Source: an uncultured Pelagibacteraceae bacterium
GTDB lineage: Bacteria; Pseudomonadota; Alphaproteobacteria; Pelagibacterales; Pelagibacteraceae
Length of the DNA stretch: 64,000 bases
Reading direction: 5' to 3'
Assembly: GCA_902612345.1 (NCBI GenBank)
Contig: CACMDE010000003.1
Coordinates: 1 to 64,000 of the forward strand
Position 1 is the first letter of the stretch; each line of letters starts with the position of its first letter. This document shows positions 1,791-9,648 of this stretch, piece by piece. The position numbers and the translations under genes are program-made. The notes under the pieces were generated by a model. The model searched no databases, was not told the DNA's origin, and worked only from the letters and a program-made list of their open reading frames with translations.

Positions 1791-4276
1791 TATTTAATAT
1801 TTAGTTGAACTAATTTACTAAAAGGACTGTCAGTTTTACTAAATTTTTTTTGTTTATCAGTCTTCTTTTTAAAAGGAATATATTTAAAGTAAATATCTTT
1901 TTCTTTAACAAAAGTTTTATAATTCATATATTTGAGCAATTCTTTAAAATTTTCTTTATTACACCCCAATAAATTTAACATCTCAGGAATAAGTTTTATT
2001 TCTTTTGTATTTTTTATTCTATTTTTGTTTGAATTAAAAATAATTATAAATAATCTTTCAAGAATATCTATCCTTACATAGAATTTATTAAATTTTTCAA
2101 ACCCACATAGAAGCATAAACTCCTTATTTGTGCTTTGTTTCTTTTCAAGAAAATTTAAACCAAATACAGGCGGTTCTAGATCAAAAAACTTTTGATAATG
2201 AATTTTCCAAAGTAATATTCTTAATGAAACTGAACTGGGTTTTAAAAGTTTATACAAAAAAATATGATATCGACCAAACTTAACACCAACAGATCTCAAA
2301 ATTTTTCTTTCATTTTGTCCTAATTTCTCCAAAATTGATTTAACTTCGTCTCTTTTCACAACTCCATTATTTTCGTATAAATTGTAAGATAAAGCTCTAA
2401 TTTCACTATTATTATCTTTTATATTCTTTAGTTTTATTAAACTTTCTAATTCATTTTCAATTTTATTTTTCAGCCAATCGTCTAAAAATATATTTAGTTT
2501 AGTTTTGTGTTTTATCTCAATCATATCATCGATAATCAAATCTATTTCAGGTGTTAAGTAATCTTTGCCTTTTTGAAGTTTAGCTATCGGATAATTATTC
2601 CAATATATTTTTGAATCTTTCCTAATTTCAATTAATTGAGTATTTATAATCTGATCTATTCTTTTTAAGATTTCAGGCATAACTGTTTGTCTAGCAGCTT
2701 TTTTAAGAGATTTTATATCTGTATCTAATGCATCAACTTTAAAATCTAATTCTAACTTTAATCCATTTAAGTTTCCGATAAATAGATCATTAATTTTAAC
2801 TTTTTTGTTGTCAATTATTTCAGTTTTAAATGAAATATCCTGTTTAAGTCCTTTAGCCAAAACACTTGCTCTTTTGTCAATGAATGTTTTTGTCAATTCT
2901 TCATGGAGTCTATCAGATAATTTATCTTCTAAATATTTTGTTCTTTCTATCCAGTAATCATTATTTTCTACCCAATTTGATTTATTTGCTACATAAGACC
3001 AAATCCTTACATTAGCAATTCTATTTGAAATAGAGTCAACATTTCCTTCAACTTTATCTAGCAATTTAAGTTGTTCTTTTAAATATGAATTTGGTATTTT
3101 TCTTTTTGATGATAAAAAATAAAAAACTTTTTTTACAATTTCCAAATGTTTTCCATAACTTTTTTTGACAAAATCTGGTATCTGACAACATTCCCATAAT
3201 AATCTTAATTCACTTTCTTCATCTTTAATTTTAATTTCATTTTGATTATTTATCAGATATTTTAATACTTTCTCATCTTCACATTCACTTATTCTTCGTA
3301 ACCAATCTTTACCAGGTTTTTCTTCCAGTGATTTTATTAGGTTTTTTATATTACTAAAATTTAAATTTGAGTTTCTCCAAAATATATTATTTATTAAATC
3401 AAATTTGTGATTTTCAATTAAATCTATTTCATCTGGATTTATATTTTTAACTTCTCCAGTAATTCCAAAATTTCCATCATTCATATATCTTCCAGCACGT
3501 CCTGCAATCTGTCCTATTTCAGATAAGTTTAATCTTCTTAATTTTTTCCCATCAAATTTCTTTAAATTTGAAAAATAAATGTTATCCAAATCCATGTTTA
3601 TGCCCATTCCAATTGCATCTGTAGCAACCAAATAGTCAACATCACCTGATTGATATAATGAAACTTGTGAATTTCTAGTTTTTGGACTCAATGAACCCAT
3701 TACAATCGCACATCCACCTTTTTGTCGTCTTAACAATTCTGCTATTGCATAAACTTCTTCAGTTGAAAATGCGATAATAGCGCTTTTTCTCTCAATTCTT
3801 GAAATTTTTTTATGACCTGAATAAGATAGTTTAGAAAATCTTTCTTTATTAACATAGTCAATCTTTTCCTCTAAATTATCAAGTACATTTTTCATAGTAT
3901 GAGATCCCATGAACATAGTTTGTTTTTCACCTCTTAAATTAAGAATTCTATCAGTAAATATATGTCCTCTTTCATGGTCATTAGACATTTGAATTTCATC
4001 TATTGCAACAAATTCTAAATTTTTGTCTATAGGCATAGACTCTACAGTACATAGAAAATATTTAGCATTTGACGGGATAATTTTTTCCTCACCTGTAATT
4101 AGTGCAACTTTAGAGGCATCAATTTTTTTTGTTACCTTGTCATATACTTCTCGTGCCAATAATCTTAATGGAAAACCAATCATTCCAGATTCGAAAGAGA
4201 GCATTGTCTCTATAGCTAGAAATGTTTTTCCAGTATTTGTTGGCCCAAGTACTGCAGTTATCATTTGATTTTTCAT
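1790..4276 (-). CDS. SUV3-type superfamily 2 RNA/DNA helicase
   Basis: 828 residues. Walker A GPTNTGKT is at 11-18, the DEIQ Walker B box at 93-96, and a QIAGRAGR motif VI near residue 260. All are typical of the SUV3/SUPV3L1 DExH-type helicases known from the mitochondrial degradosome and of their alphaproteobacterial homologues. The C-terminal 450 residues are Lys-rich and much less conserved. The likely role is RNA unwinding in turnover with a 3'-5' exonuclease, but no nuclease partner is adjacent. It is the first gene of the TerB-fdxA-carD unit. A 161-bp upstream gap holds a palindromic ACTATATATAGT near 4310 that could serve as the -10 region; a purine-rich AGG lies just before the ATG. 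Confidence 0.9.
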   Translation of the reverse strand: MKNQMITAVLGPTNTGKTFLAIETMLSFESGMIGFPLRLLAREVYDKVTKKIDASKVALITGEEKIIPSNAKYFLCTVESMPIDKNLEFVAIDEIQMSNDHERGHIFTDRILNLRGEKQTMFMGSHTMKNVLDNLEEKIDYVNKERFSKLSYSGHKKISRIERKSAIIAFSTEEVYAIAELLRRQKGGCAIVMGSLSPKTRNSQVSLYQSGDVDYLVATDAIGMGINMDLDNIYFSNLKKFDGKKLRRLNLSEIGQIAGRAGRYMNDGNFGITGEVKNINPDEIDLIENHKFDLINNIFWRNSNLNFSNIKNLIKSLEEKPGKDWLRRISECEDEKVLKYLINNQNEIKIKDEESELRLLWECCQIPDFVKKSYGKHLEIVKKVFYFLSSKRKIPNSYLKEQLKLLDKVEGNVDSISNRIANVRIWSYVANKSNWVENNDYWIERTKYLEDKLSDRLHEELTKTFIDKRASVLAKGLKQDISFKTEIIDNKKVKINDLFIGNLNGLKLELDFKVDALDTDIKSLKKAARQTVMPEILKRIDQIINTQLIEIRKDSKIYWNNYPIAKLQKGKDYLTPEIDLIIDDMIEIKHKTKLNIFLDDWLKNKIENELESLIKLKNIKDNNSEIRALSYNLYENNGVVKRDEVKSILEKLGQNERKILRSVGVKFGRYHIFLYKLLKPSSVSLRILLWKIHYQKFFDLEPPVFGLNFLEKKQSTNKEFMLLCGFEKFNKFYVRIDILERLFIIIFNSNKNRIKNTKEIKLIPEMLNLLGCNKENFKELLKYMNYKTFVKEKDIYFKYIPFKKKTDKQKKFSKTDSPFSKLVQLNIK

Positions 4277-4437
4277 TTCTACCTTTTGTGTCTAATTTTT
4301 CTTTGTCACTATATATAGTATCTCTAAAAGAACAAAAATGGGATAAAAGGTGTCCGAATCACAATTTCAAATGTTCTCTTTATTTAATATAAAAAATAAT
4401 CATAACATTAATTTTAAAAAACCTAAATATCTATTAT

Positions 4438-4860
4438 CTAACCACCAAATCCTGCTCCGGTAATTTTATTATTTAGTATTTTCCAAATACCAGATGCAGT
4501 AGCAATTATCTTTTTTTTTGAAATTATATTACAACTTAGGAAAACTAGTGAATTTGTTTTTTTATTTATTGAAACTTGCCCTACAATTTTATCATCTAAT
4601 TTAGTAGGTGCTATAAACTTAATTTCCAAAGATATTGTAACGCAAGATTTCCCATTAGCAGATAAATGAGCTGCTGTTCCTGCACCTGCGTCAATTATTG
4701 AACAAATATATCCACCATGGGTATTTTTAGCTCTATTTAAATGAATTTTTTTTATCTTAGTTTTAAACTCATATTTATTTTTATTTATTTTTCTAAATAA
4801 AAGACCACCATTATTTCTTAAAAATCCCGGTTTTTTACTTATTTGATAAAATTTTTTCAT
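4438..4860 (-). CDS. PaaI-type hotdog-fold thioesterase
   Basis: 140 residues with the hotdog thioesterase signature: a conserved NTHGGYICSIIDAGAG helix (HGG then an Asp, as in PaaI/ACOT13 enzymes) followed by beta strands ending at TASGIWKIL. These enzymes hydrolyse acyl-CoA thioesters; the substrate cannot be read from sequence. The ATG overlaps the TAA of a 27-codon peptide gene (TAATG), so the two are translationally coupled downstream of tRNA-Arg. About 160 bp downstream, before the helicase gene, hold no gene. Confidence 0.88.
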   Translation of the reverse strand: MKKFYQISKKPGFLRNNGGLLFRKINKNKYEFKTKIKKIHLNRAKNTHGGYICSIIDAGAGTAAHLSANGKSCVTISLEIKFIAPTKLDDKIVGQVSINKKTNSLVFLSCNIISKKKIIATASGIWKILNNKITGAGFGG

Positions 4861-4943
4861 TACAGAATAATTGAGAAAATAATTAATAATAAAATAATCA
4901 CTATGAAAAAGTAAATTACAGATTTTTCTAATGATATCTTCAT
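4860..4943 (-). CDS. 27-residue single-span membrane peptide
   Basis: The ATG at 4943 opens a 27-codon frame whose TAA overlaps the thioesterase ATG. A short charged start (MKISLEK) is followed by about 19 hydrophobic residues (IYFFIVIILLLIIFSIIL), a textbook transmembrane helix. A strong GGAAGGG Shine-Dalgarno lies 5-10 nt upstream. It begins 13 nt after the encoded CCA end of tRNA-Arg, so its message is probably released by tRNA 3' processing. I do not recognise the family. The stop/start overlap with the thioesterase and the good ribosome-binding site make it likely to be translated. Confidence 0.65.
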   Translation of the reverse strand: MKISLEKSVIYFFIVIILLLIIFSIIL

Positions 4944-4956
4944 TAATCCCTTCCTT

Positions 4957-5033
4957 TGGTGCGCCTGCTAGGATTTGAACCCAGAACCTCCTGGTCCGTA
5001 GCCAAGCGCTCTATCCAGTTGAGCTACAGGCGC
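4957..5033 (-). tRNA. tRNA-Arg (anticodon ACG)
   Basis: A full cloverleaf on the minus strand: acceptor GCGCCTG/CAGGCGC, D arm GCTC/GAGC, anticodon stem CTTGG/CCAGG around loop CTACGGA (ACG at 34-36), T arm CTGGG TTCAAAT CCTAG, discriminator A, and CCA encoded at 4957-4959. The A34 is expected to be deaminated to inosine to read CGN codons. It heads the peptide-thioesterase unit. Confidence 0.97.
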
Positions 5034-5171
5034 CCTTTAATTAATAATAGTAGTTTTTAATGTAATTATTTTTTATTATCAATTACTCTTATTTAAAGAT
5101 TTTAGGTAATTTTTTAACAAAATATTCTGTATCCAATTCTTCGCATCTAGATCGTTTTTCAATCTTTTTTC

Positions 5172-5196
5172 ATGGTGAGATATTAAATAGCACCAT
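5172..5196. promoter_or_regulatory. Dyad ATGGTG-N13-CACCAT upstream of the PDH operon
   Basis: The 299-bp gap between tRNA-Arg and aceE (5034-5332) has no gene. It contains this 6-bp inverted repeat with a 13-bp spacer, 137 bp before the aceE start. Spacing does not fit the E. coli PdhR operator. It may be an operator, a small hairpin or chance. A repeated GCATAT lies further down, near 5222 and 5233. Confidence 0.25.
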
Positions 5197-5309
5197 ATTT
5201 TGGTTAAAATATATCTAATTTGCATATCTATTGTGCATATAAATTATTTAGATTGTTCAAATTTTGTATTAAATATGGCCAAAAAAATACTTATTTTTAA
5301 AAAAGAGCG

Positions 5310-5315
5310 TATAAT
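5310..5315 (+). promoter_or_regulatory. -10 box (TATAAT) for aceE-aceF
   Basis: A perfect TATAAT lies 17 bp before the aceE ATG, with no clear -35 match at 16-18 bp. Transcription would start near 5322, giving a leader of only about 10 nt without a Shine-Dalgarno, so the mRNA would be near-leaderless. Confidence 0.55.
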
Positions 5316-5332
5316 AAGTATTAATTGATTCA

Positions 5333-8300
5333 ATGAGCAAACAAATAACAGTTCCTGATATAGGTGATTTCGAAAACGTAGAGATAATTGAAATTTTAGT
5401 TAAACAGGGAGATACTATTAAAAAAAATGATCCTTTAATTACACTAGAGAGCGATAAATCAAGTGTGGAGGTCCCGTCTACTGAAGAGGGCATTATTGAA
5501 AAAATAAGCGTAAAAGTTGGAGATAAAGTCTCAAAAGGAGATTTGATATTATCTATAAACTCCAAAAACGATGAGCCCAGGTCTAATATACCTCCTGTCA
5601 CAGAGAATATTATTCGAGAGGCTGAAAAAACTTTAAAGGTAAAAAATAAGATTGAAAACAGTAATAATTTACAAGACCCGAAAATAAAAAAAGAGGAAAA
5701 TAGAATCATAATAACTGATAGTAAAGATATTGATCCTTTAGAAACTAAAGAGTGGATAGACTCCCTAAATGCAGTTGTTGATAATGTAGGCAATGAGAGA
5801 GCTCATTTTCTTTTAAGGCAATTGATTGATCAATCATATAGAAAAGGATCTAGGATTCCTTTTATACAAAATACGCCCTATATAAATACTATTCCACCAA
5901 ACGAGGAAGAGAAATCTTCTGGAGACCAAAATATAGAACGAAAAATTAGATCTTTAATAAGGTGGAATGCTGCAGCTATGGTTGTAAGGGCAAATAAAAA
6001 ATTTCCTGAACTAGGTGGGCATATAGGTACATTTGCATCTGCTGCAACTCTTTATGATGTAGGAATGAATCATTTTTGGAGAGCAAAAAATCATCAATTT
6101 GGAGGTGATTTAATTTATTTTCAAGGTCATTCTGCTCCTGGAATATATTCAAGAGCTTTTTTAGAGGGAAGACTTTCAAAAGAGCAATTAGATAATTTCA
6201 GACAGGAAGTTGAGCCTAATGGATTATCTTCTTATCCACACCCATGGTTAATGCATAAATTTTGGCAATTCCCAACTGTATCAATGGGCCTAGGTCCAAT
6301 GCTAGCAATCTATCAAGCACGATTTATGAAATACTTAATAAATAGAGGTTTAATAAAAGACGAAAATAGAAAAGTCTGGGCATTCCTTGGAGATGGAGAA
6401 ATGGATGAACCAGAGTCTTTGGGGGCAATTGCCTTAGCATCAAGAGAAAATCTAGACAATTTAATATTTGTGATAAACTGTAACCTACAAAGATTAGACG
6501 GACCAGTTAGAGGAAATGGAAAGATTATTCAAGAATTAGAAGGAAGCTTCAGAGGTTCGGGATGGAACGTAATAAAAGTAATTTGGGGTTCATATTGGGA
6601 TCCACTTTTAGCTAAAGATAAAACAGGATTGCTTATTAAAAGAATGAATGAAGCTGTTGATGGAGAATATCAGGCATTTAAAGCAAAAGGAGGAGCTTAT
6701 GTAAGAGAAAAATTTTTTGGAAAATATCCGGAATTGTCAGAATTAGTTTCATCATATAGTGACAAGGACATTTGGCGATTAAATAGAGGTGGTCATGATC
6801 CCCATAAAGTTTATGCAGCATATCATAAGGCAATGGAAAATGTAGGAAGCCCAACAGTTATTATTACAAAAACAATTAAGGGATATGGTATGGGTAAATC
6901 TGGCGAAAGTATCAACACAACACATCAACAAAAAAAATTAGATGTTGAAGATTTAATGTATTATAGGGATAGATTTGATGTACCATTAACTGATCAACAG
7001 GTTAAGAATATAGAATATTACAGACCTAGTGAAAATTCTGATGAAATTAAATATCTCAAAGAAAGGAGATTAAAATTAGGTGGACATCTACCTGAAAGAT
7101 CAACATTTGCAAAACCTATAAAAGCACCACCAGAAGATATTTTTGAAGTGATGAAGAAATCAACTGGTAATAAGGAGATGTCAACTACAATGGCATTAGT
7201 AAGAATGTTAACTAATCTTTTAAGAGACAAAAATGTTGCATCAAGATTAGTTCCAATAATACCTGATGAAGCTCGAACTTTTGGAATGGAAGGTTTTTTT
7301 CAGAAGATTGGCATATATGCTCATGAGGGACAAAAATATGAGCCGGTTGACTCGGAACAATTAAGTTCATACAGAGAAGATAAAAAAGGACAAGTTTTGG
7401 AAGAGGGTATTACTGAGGCTGGATCAATGTCTTCATGGATAGCAGCCGGAACATCTTACACAAATCATGATATAGAAATGATACCTATATATATGTTTTA
7501 TTCAATGTTTGGATTTCAAAGAGTGGGAGATTTTGCTTGGGCAGCTGGTGATAGTCAAGCGAGAGGTTTTTTAATTGGAGCGACATCTGGAAGAACTACT
7601 TTAGCTGGGGAAGGTTTACAACATCAGGATGGGCACAGTCATCTTTTGTCATCAACTATTCCTAATTGTGTTTCATATGACCCAACATTTTCGTACGAAT
7701 TAGCAGTAATATTCAGAGATGGATTAAAAAGAATGCATGAAAAAAAAGAAAATATTTTTTATTACATTACTACAATGAATGAAAATTATCCTCATCCTGA
7801 AATGCCTAAAGAAAGTGAAAAAGGAATATTGAAAGGTATGTATAAAATTAAAGACTTTTCAAAGAATAAAAAAACTAAAATTCAATTGCTTGGTTCAGGA
7901 ACAATTTTAAGAGAAATGATGAGTGCTGCAGAAATGCTTCAAGAGGAATATCAAATTGATAGCGAAGTGTGGAGTGTTACGAGTTTTAGCGAGTTGAGAA
8001 AAAATGGAATGGAAACAGAAAGATACAATTTATTGCATCCAGATAAAAAGAAAAAAAAGTCTTATATTGAAGAATGTTTAGGTGAAACCGAAGGTCCTAT
8101 TTTGGCAGCTTCAGATTATATGAGACTAAATTCAGATCAAATTAGATCTTATATTAACAAAAGTTTTTACTCTTTAGGTACAGATGGTTATGGTAGGAGT
8201 GATACAAGAAAAAATTTAAGAAAATTTTTTGAAGTAGATAAAAATTATATAACAACTTATGCATTGAGTGTTTTAGCTAATGAACAATTGTTATCTTCAA

Positions 8301-8368
8301 AGTACGCTGTAGACGCAATAAAAAAATATAATATAGATGCTGATAAACCAATGCCCACTAAAGTTTAA
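5333..8368 (+). CDS. aceE: Pyruvate dehydrogenase E1 (homodimeric AceE type) with fused N-terminal lipoyl domain
   Basis: 1011 residues against about 890 for E. coli AceE. Residues 1-76 are a complete biotinyl/lipoyl domain with the lipoylation motif ESDKSSVEVPS (Lys42). A polar linker runs to about 130, then a full-length AceE-type E1 follows. The thiamine-diphosphate motif GDGEMDEPES...NCNLQRLDGP and the active-site region GHDPHK are present. The enzyme decarboxylates pyruvate and acetylates the lipoyl group, feeding acetyl-CoA synthesis. The stop overlaps the aceF start (TAATG). The lipoyl domain is 51 of 71 identical (hand-aligned) to that of the adjacent AceF, which points to a local domain duplication. 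No E3 (lpd) gene is in the window. Confidence 0.96.
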   Translation: MSKQITVPDIGDFENVEIIEILVKQGDTIKKNDPLITLESDKSSVEVPSTEEGIIEKISVKVGDKVSKGDLILSINSKNDEPRSNIPPVTENIIREAEKTLKVKNKIENSNNLQDPKIKKEENRIIITDSKDIDPLETKEWIDSLNAVVDNVGNERAHFLLRQLIDQSYRKGSRIPFIQNTPYINTIPPNEEEKSSGDQNIERKIRSLIRWNAAAMVVRANKKFPELGGHIGTFASAATLYDVGMNHFWRAKNHQFGGDLIYFQGHSAPGIYSRAFLEGRLSKEQLDNFRQEVEPNGLSSYPHPWLMHKFWQFPTVSMGLGPMLAIYQARFMKYLINRGLIKDENRKVWAFLGDGEMDEPESLGAIALASRENLDNLIFVINCNLQRLDGPVRGNGKIIQELEGSFRGSGWNVIKVIWGSYWDPLLAKDKTGLLIKRMNEAVDGEYQAFKAKGGAYVREKFFGKYPELSELVSSYSDKDIWRLNRGGHDPHKVYAAYHKAMENVGSPTVIITKTIKGYGMGKSGESINTTHQQKKLDVEDLMYYRDRFDVPLTDQQVKNIEYYRPSENSDEIKYLKERRLKLGGHLPERSTFAKPIKAPPEDIFEVMKKSTGNKEMSTTMALVRMLTNLLRDKNVASRLVPIIPDEARTFGMEGFFQKIGIYAHEGQKYEPVDSEQLSSYREDKKGQVLEEGITEAGSMSSWIAAGTSYTNHDIEMIPIYMFYSMFGFQRVGDFAWAAGDSQARGFLIGATSGRTTLAGEGLQHQDGHSHLLSSTIPNCVSYDPTFSYELAVIFRDGLKRMHEKKENIFYYITTMNENYPHPEMPKESEKGILKGMYKIKDFSKNKKTKIQLLGSGTILREMMSAAEMLQEEYQIDSEVWSVTSFSELRKNGMETERYNLLHPDKKKKKSYIEECLGETEGPILAASDYMRLNSDQIRSYINKSFYSLGTDGYGRSDTRKNLRKFFEVDKNYITTYALSVLANEQLLSSKYAVDAIKKYNIDADKPMPTKV

Positions 8369-9648
8369 TGGCTTTAATTGATATAAAAGTACCAAATATA
8401 GGCGATTTCAAAGACGTAGAAATCATAGAAATATTAGTAAAAAATGGACAAGAAATTAACAAAGGTGACTCAATTATCACCCTTGAGAGCGATAAATCAA
8501 GTGTAGAGGTGCCATCAGATCATTCAGGCAAAATATCAAATATAAATGTAAAAGTAGGTGACAAGGTTTCTGAGGGAGATTTAATACTTAAGATAGAGTT
8601 AATTAAAACAGAGGATATAAAAATAGTTGAGAAAGAAATCAATAACACCAAAGATAATTATGAAACTACTAAAAAACCTTTAGAAAAAAAAGAAATCAAA
8701 ACAAATATACAGAATATTAACAATACAGAAAAATTAGTATTAGCTAGTCCAAGGGTGAGAAAATTTGCAAGAGAACTCGGGGCTGATATAAATATAATTT
8801 CTGGATCTGAAAAGTTTGGTAGAGTTTCGGAAGATGATGTAAAAAGCTTTATCAAACTTGGTATAAATAAAAAACAGCCATTAAAAAATAATGAGAAAAA
8901 TCAAAAGAAACAAATTAAAATTGAATATGATCACTCTGATTTCGGTGAGATTGATGTAAAGGATATACCAAGAATAAAAAAGTTGTCAGCACCACATCTT
9001 GTTAATTCTTTTAATATAATCCCACATGTTACTCATCATGATGAAATTGACATCACTGAAATGGAAGAATTTAGAAACTCATTAACAGATCATTATACTG
9101 GAGAAAAATTAAAAATTACTCCTTTAGCATTTATTATGAAAGCACTAGTGGCAGCTCTAAAAGAATTTCCATCTTTTAATTCTTCTATTGAGGATATGAG
9201 TAGTGGAAAAATTACTTTTAAAAAATATTTTCATATAGGTATTGCTGTGGATACTCCTAATGGTTTGATGGTTCCTAAAATAAGACAAGTCGACAAAAAG
9301 AATATTCAACATTTATCAACCGAATTAAGAGAGGTTGCTCAAAAATGCAGAGATTTAAAAATTGATAAGAAGGAATTTTATGGAGGATCAATGACAATAT
9401 CTAGTCTTGGAGGTATTGGAGGAAGTTTCTTCACTCCTATTATAAACTATCCCGAGGTGGCAATATTAGGAGTTAGCAAATCGAACAAAAAACAAATCTT
9501 ATTTGGAGATCGATTTACAACAAGAACTATATTACCAATTTCTTTGTCCTATGATCATAGAATTATTGATGGTGCAGAGGCTGCCAGATTTTGTAATGAG
9601 ATTAGAGACAATTTAGGTAAAAATTTTGCTTTTAAATTAGCTATATAA
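8368..9648 (+). CDS. aceF: Pyruvate dehydrogenase E2, dihydrolipoyl acetyltransferase
   Basis: 426 residues. It has one lipoyl domain (Lys43 in ESDKSSVEVPS), a low-complexity linker, a peripheral-subunit-binding domain (ASPRVRKFARELGADI), and the catalytic acyltransferase domain ending with SYDHRIIDGAEAARF, which carries the His and Asp of the active site. It transfers acetyl from lipoamide to CoA and forms the core of the complex. E. coli AceF has three lipoyl domains. Here E2 carries one and E1 carries a second. It is coupled to aceE by a one-base stop/start overlap. Confidence 0.97.
   Translation: MALIDIKVPNIGDFKDVEIIEILVKNGQEINKGDSIITLESDKSSVEVPSDHSGKISNINVKVGDKVSEGDLILKIELIKTEDIKIVEKEINNTKDNYETTKKPLEKKEIKTNIQNINNTEKLVLASPRVRKFARELGADINIISGSEKFGRVSEDDVKSFIKLGINKKQPLKNNEKNQKKQIKIEYDHSDFGEIDVKDIPRIKKLSAPHLVNSFNIIPHVTHHDEIDITEMEEFRNSLTDHYTGEKLKITPLAFIMKALVAALKEFPSFNSSIEDMSSGKITFKKYFHIGIAVDTPNGLMVPKIRQVDKKNIQHLSTELREVAQKCRDLKIDKKEFYGGSMTISSLGGIGGSFFTPIINYPEVAILGVSKSNKKQILFGDRFTTRTILPISLSYDHRIIDGAEAARFCNEIRDNLGKNFAFKLAI

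Follow-up and report, generated by a model that had tools for sequence, protein, structure and literature searches.

A lipoyl domain fused to the pyruvate dehydrogenase E1 of SAR11 bacteria is probably a working swinging arm, and the only one where E2 lacks its own

The pyruvate dehydrogenase (PDH) locus described here lies in a 64,000-nucleotide stretch of DNA (hereafter the window; positions 1 to 64,000 of contig CACMDE010000003.1, assembly GCA_902612345.1) from an uncultured bacterium of the family Pelagibacteraceae (SAR11). It encodes an AceE-type E1 that carries a lipoyl domain at its N-terminus. Comparison of this locus with those of its relatives suggests that the E1 domain probably functions as a swinging arm, which in several lineages would be the only one, and we predict that the domain is lipoylated. 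We consider the full scenario, in which the E1 arm works in PDH and has taken over from an E2 arm lost in several lineages, likely; that two arms, as in the window, gave way on several occasions in SAR11 to a complex with a swinging arm on E1 alone and none on E2 seems about as likely to us. The E2 proteins without a lipoyl arm among the relatives are a new point, which the initial annotation of the window had missed.

The fusion is encoded by a single open reading frame (5333..8368, forward strand) of 1011 residues, identified as a homodimeric-type pyruvate dehydrogenase E1 by its Pfam, NCBIfam and PDB matches. Its Pfam architecture consists of Biotin_lipoyl (residues 3-75, E 7e-21; 5339..5557), PDH_E1_M and the N- and C-terminal transketolase domains. 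Residues 3-75 score 74.2 bits with PF00364, against a cut-off of 22.1, and contain Lys42 (codon 5456-5458) within the motif ESDKS. The catalytic part matches E. coli AceE (PDB 1l8a, 1151.5 bits), and residues 130-1010 (5720..8362) score 1425.7 bits with TIGR00759, the homodimeric aceE model (cut-off 859.9; model positions 3-884 of 885), whereas the alpha-ketoglutarate model TIGR03186 stays under its cut-off (1272.6 versus 1408.3 bits). In an AlphaFold2 model built from 31 sequences (mean predicted local distance difference test score, pLDDT, 76.3; predicted template modelling score 0.71) the lipoyl domain is folded, and strands 34-39 and 44-48 flank Lys42. The linker of about 54 residues (5558..5719), delimited by the gap between the Pfam and NCBIfam boundaries, is largely of low confidence in this model (pLDDT below 50 at residues 79-91 and 104-129), with a helix predicted at 88-109. 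The nearest named relative is the uncultured Pelagibacteraceae bacterium isolate AG-365-P20 (L035, 93% identical), which places the window in SAR11.

For the family-wide comparison, 148 loci yielded 144 distinct main E1s after removal of identical E1 sequences, and 140 of these have a complete N-terminus; the number refers to distinct sequences and not to species. A 65% identity limit excluded the lipoyl-less AceE paralogs (see below), and the counts omit an aceE split over frames (L032), a locus at a contig end (L033), one lipoyl-less paralog (L034) and four E1s cut at contig starts (L031, L057, L061, L062). All 140 main E1s carry at least one lipoyl domain and nine of them carry two, and the ESDKS lysine motif is kept in each of the 149 domains. 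Because the same joint recurs in 140 of 140 E1s, the fusion is not an accident of assembly or of start-codon choice, and the rearranged PDH architecture proposed in the initial annotation is real. AceE matches (E 1e-100 or better) were found in 101 of 118 family genomes, representing all 14 genera, and the main E1 extends into a lipoyl domain in 12 genera, the other two (g14 and g17) having truncated E1s only. In the draft genome G032 the fusion gene (L032) is broken over several frames with a stop, and some family genomes at least 93% complete (G156, G201 and others) gave no AceE match.

Outside the family the fusion was not encountered. It is absent from all 47 outgroup AceE loci (L068-L114, on genome contigs), in line with the premise that AceE-type E1s normally lack a lipoyl domain. 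In the class sample (289 genomes, 8 with AceE, 3 of them in the family) and the phylum sample (398 genomes, 161 with AceE, 2 of them in the family), with two candidates scored per genome, none of the matches listed outside the family starts before query residue 110. Among genomes outside the family with long open frames (L233-L249), the E1 frame contains no lipoyl domain in 15 of 16 cases, the piece from G766 being cut. In the order sample no AceE match at E 1e-100 was present in 49 genomes of family f2; 24 genomes of f2 (G037-G060) showed no AceE even at E 1e-10, and none of them had more than a single match to a 2-oxoacid dehydrogenase E2. Within SAR11 the fusion is both widespread and old, which the initial annotation had named as an outcome that would refute its reading; outside SAR11 it was not found in these samples. 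Among the titles and abstract openings listed in searches of the open-access literature, none reports a lipoyl-AceE fusion. The aceEF genes and additional aceE copies of SAR11 have been described, lipoyl domains being unmentioned in the relevant passages of that paper (PMC10030771).

Part of the family has a second AceE, about 52-55% identical and devoid of a lipoyl domain, e.g. at 3989-6652 of locus L251 (genome G100). Judged by sequence reading, the 10.6 kb around this paralog contain TRAP-transporter-like genes and an isocitrate-lyase-like gene and no E2. The paralog may use the arm of another complex.

The E2 genes adjacent to the 140 main E1 genes encode no lipoyl domain at 40 loci, one at 93 and two at 7, and the combinations of lipoyl-type domains on E1 and E2 observed in SAR11 are 1+0, 1+1, 1+2, 2+1 and 2+2. 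Where E2 has two such domains (L210, L211, L212, L214, L216, L217, L219), the second has D, E or N in place of the lysine in 7 of 7 cases, and therefore no lipoylation is possible at that site. The armless E2s are open frames of 296-329 residues that start shortly before the peripheral subunit-binding domain (PSBD). The motif at the start of this domain (A-S/T-P-x-x-R-K-F type) is present in 39 of the 40, and the catalytic motif reads DHRxxDG in 33 and DHRxxNG in 7. The seven E2s with asparagine form one armless clade (L027, L029, L054, L063, L150, L159, L232).

A tree built from the catalytic part of E1 has 146 rows, of which 6 are outgroup, and all of its SAR11 rows possess the E1 lipoyl domain. 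The armless state of E2 requires at least 7 changes on this tree, whereas 200 shuffles gave 35 on average. The number of changes cannot by itself separate loss of the E2 arm from its gain; loss is favoured because the E2 lipoyl domains mostly cluster together and not with the E1 domain from the same genome. A whole-genome search for PF00364 in 12 genomes with armless E2 found full matches only in E1, in SucB-like frames (436-454 residues) and in AccB-like frames (119-167 residues), the latter two labels being assigned by frame length (only for G004 among the 12 was PF00198 also matched in the same frame); GcvH was not searched for. One genome (G183) had a single additional match, weak and partial. 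Among the PF00364 domains of these genomes, with GcvH left unsearched, E1 is thus the sole candidate for a PDH arm of the ordinary kind. With the arm absent from its usual place on E2 in these relatives, the arm at work in them is probably that of E1.

Based on these observations, we suggest the following course of events. In the ancestor of the family or earlier, AceE would have received at its N-terminus a copy of an AceF lipoyl domain, attached through a flexible linker. Both arms would at first have been kept, and the E2 arm would later have been lost in several lineages. The fused domain would be lipoylated on Lys42, undergo reductive acetylation in an active site of E1, hand its acetyl group to the E2 core and be reoxidised by E3. 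E1 is a dimer, hence there are two arms per E1 dimer. Lineages without an E2 arm would run PDH on the E1 arm alone, while the genome represented by the window retains two arms.

The position of the fusion offers a possible reason why the E2 arm could be lost. Residues 131-172 of E1 (5723..5848), for which the AlphaFold2 model shows helices at 135-151 and 154-170, match an E1 peptide of PDB 9h1n (chain C, 49 residues; E 1.6e-6), and the PSBD of the window E2 matches the other listed chain of the same entry (chain A, an E2 of 66 residues). The E1 arm would thus be placed directly before the part of the AceE N-terminus by which E1 binds the PSBD of E2. If the segment docks in this way, the arm would emerge at the E1-PSBD contact, from which an arm on E2 would start as well, the E2 lipoyl domain being located just before the PSBD. 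A shift of the arm from E2 to E1 would then leave its position in the assembled complex almost unchanged, and because the E1 arm would sit at nearly the same place, the E2 copy could have become dispensable.

Several points weigh against this interpretation. The asparagine in the HxxxNG motif of 7 of the 40 armless E2s could mean a weakened E2 or altered catalysis. In principle PDH could be served by the lipoyl domain of the SucB-like protein or by GcvH, and the completeness of the 12 armless genomes (86-99%) leaves space for a missed gene. AceE was seen in 42 of the 45 family genomes that are at least 90% complete, besides the overall count of 101 of 118 given above, and in one genome (G010, 76% complete) the paralog without a lipoyl domain was the only AceE seen. 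The AceE N-terminal segment is presumably the element that docks on the PSBD, a role that we assign from PDB chain names and general knowledge. Finally, the length of the E1 linker is not significantly associated with armlessness by an independent-pairs test (cut-off 54 residues; 1-3 of 6 pairs agreeing, 0 opposed).

The raw counts for the linker are clear: it has at least 54 residues in 36 of 40 E1s with an armless E2 and in 13 of 100 with an armed one. Given the result of the independent-pairs test, we nevertheless did not adopt a longer linker as an adaptation to the loss of the E2 arm. The sister loci L158 (armless) and L052 (armed) have identical linkers of 67 residues. That a longer linker accompanies the loss of the E2 arm is only a suggestion from these sequences.

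Among other explanations, the one that survives best, though we regard it as improbable, is that the lipoyl domain on E1 would be a superfluous arm of little function, PDH being served by the E2 arm or, where E2 is armless, by the lipoyl domain of a SucB-like protein or GcvH. An E2 lipoyl domain with ESDKS is indeed retained at 100 of 140 loci, all 12 armless genomes searched contain a SucB-like frame with a lipoyl domain, and the OdhA protein of Corynebacterium is described as relying on the lipoyl groups of the PDH E2 (PMC8146983). However, the E1 domain is constant and its lysine invariant in the 140 main E1s, while the E2 domain comes and goes. A useless domain would give the reverse pattern. 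The lipoyl-less paralogs, at about 52% identity, are a separate type outside these 140.

It is very unlikely that the armless E2 genes merely reflect gaps in the assemblies or pseudogenes. Draft genomes are numerous in the set, and the aceE of L032 is split over frames, but the 40 armless loci are distinct and cluster on the E1 tree, their E2 frames are open and either overlap the end of E1 or start 4-7 bases behind its last codon, and completeness is 95-99% in 9 of the 12 genomes that were searched in full.

The remaining explanations concern the source of the fused domain, for which the second gene of the window has to be considered. The adjacent E2 gene (8368..9648, forward strand) encodes an AceF-type protein of 426 residues, and its ATG shares one base with the stop codon of the E1 gene. 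The protein contains a lipoyl domain (residues 5-76, 8380..8595, with the Lys43 codon at 8494-8496), a PSBD (residues 124-159, 8737..8844; PF02817 and PDB matches) and a catalytic domain with the motif DHRIIDG (residues 198-416, 8959..9615; PF00198), each scoring above its Pfam cut-off. It is AceF-like but no formal member of TIGR01348 (PDHac_trf_long), reaching 429.5 bits of the 552.1 required over model positions 155-581 of 587, and it also falls below the cut-off of NF008814 (406.8 versus 722). The single arm on this E2, its 51/71 identity with the E1 lipoyl domain and the lipoylation motif common to both, all reported in the initial annotation, were recovered in our analysis (71.83% identity; Lys42 in E1, Lys43 in E2).

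From this similarity a recent local duplication of the adjacent aceF domain in the window genome had been proposed. The genes are adjacent, their lipoyl domains agree in 51 of 71 residues, and grouping the two domains of the window as sisters is not rejected by the approximately unbiased (AU) test (p 0.228), with a log-likelihood 16 lower. On the other hand, the fusion is present in 12 of 14 genera, a distribution that rules out such a recent origin, and the window E1 domain is about as similar to its own E2 (0.72, 51/71) as to other E1 domains, for which identity over 75 positions has a median of 0.67 and reaches at most 0.75. The lipoyl trees agree: E1 and E2 domains form largely separate groups (3 label changes versus shuffled means of 34 and 37), from which it follows that the copy is old, although neither set lies strictly on one side of a branch (label changes of 3 and 3, then 3 and 2). 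Constraining all E1 domains to one clade gave a tree no worse than the free one (p 0.556). In the first tree, six second E2 domains, which have long branches and no lysine, were placed on the AceF side; second E2 domains were excluded from the AU-tested trees. We therefore hold an origin of the fusion by recent duplication to be most improbable; a later gene conversion of the window pair, whose sisterhood is not rejected, may have taken place.

As to the type of the domain, SAR11 E1 and E2 lipoyl domains are together separated from gamma- and betaproteobacterial AceF domains by one branch (support 98). The details of these trees are unsure because the alignment has 75 columns and the free search missed a better tree: in the comparison with PdhB, holding all SAR11 E1 and E2 domains together scored a log-likelihood 44.5 above the free search. 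The least probable source is the heterotetrameric E1-beta (PdhB) of Alphaproteobacteria, in which an N-terminal lipoyl domain is common (21 of 41 genomes of the class match the model from position 1 or 2 to 463 or 464): grouping of E1 with PdhB is rejected (AU p 0.00026, with 12 rows labelled PdhB by their missing E2 motif, of which L255, 392 residues, and L256, 358 residues, are probably fragments of E2 truncated where the locus ends), the E1 lipoyl domain scores 93.2 and 83.3 bits with AceF models against 26.1 bits with the PdhB model, and E1 remains below the cut-off of NF008854 (PdhB with lipoyl domain; 26.1 versus 454 bits), matching it with the lipoyl and linker part only. The E1 lipoyl domain thus appears to be of the AceF type, grouping with the E2 domains of its own family.

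A tRNA-Arg gene (acg) at 4957-5033 on the reverse strand precedes the fusion gene by about 300 bases; besides tRNA, an Rfam scan of the window found no family at its gathering score.

A PDH lipoyl domain outside its usual place is already known in kind, and the step to an arm on E1 only is the point of interest. To our knowledge, the E1 of Mycoplasma hyopneumoniae is not AceE. In the PDH of this bacterium the arm has also moved off E2, and lipoylation of K42 of PdhD is reported (PMC7873978); however, the carrier there is E3 (PdhD), whereas in SAR11 it is E1. The same source places a lipoyl domain on the E3 of Neisseria meningitidis and Alcaligenes eutrophus, i.e. likewise on a subunit other than E2, but on E3 and not E1. 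The lipoyl domain of the window E1 has a match in PDB 5u25, which is an E3. In N. meningitidis and A. eutrophus, E2 retains its own lipoyl domain.

The PdhB of Zymomonas mobilis and other Alphaproteobacteria resembles the SAR11 protein in having an N-terminal lipoyl domain on an E1 subunit, but belongs to the heterotetrameric E1 family, and its lipoyl domain appears to be of separate origin, as indicated by the AU test above. We know of no loss of the E2 arm in these lipoyl-bearing PdhB systems. For Zymomonas, the text of PMC7873978 has PdhA, and the title that it cites has E1beta. Corynebacterium OdhA is similar in that its acyltransferase part needs the lipoyl groups of a partner protein (PMC8146983); it differs in combining E1 and E2 activities in one chain and in using the arm of the PDH E2. 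E. coli provides structural counterparts for the E1 catalytic part (1l8a), the N-terminal segment and E2 (7b9k). However, the matched solved E1 chains bear no lipoyl domain (they cover query residues 131-1008 only), and the E. coli E2 has three lipoyl domains (PMC8421416).

Among the heterotrophic bacterioplankton of the oceans, SAR11 bacteria are described as the most abundant (PMC10030771). The E2-borne lipoyl arm is a textbook organising principle of 2-oxoacid dehydrogenases. SAR11 constitutes a graded natural series among close relatives, which could be used to test how the place and number of the arms, and the length of their tether, matter.

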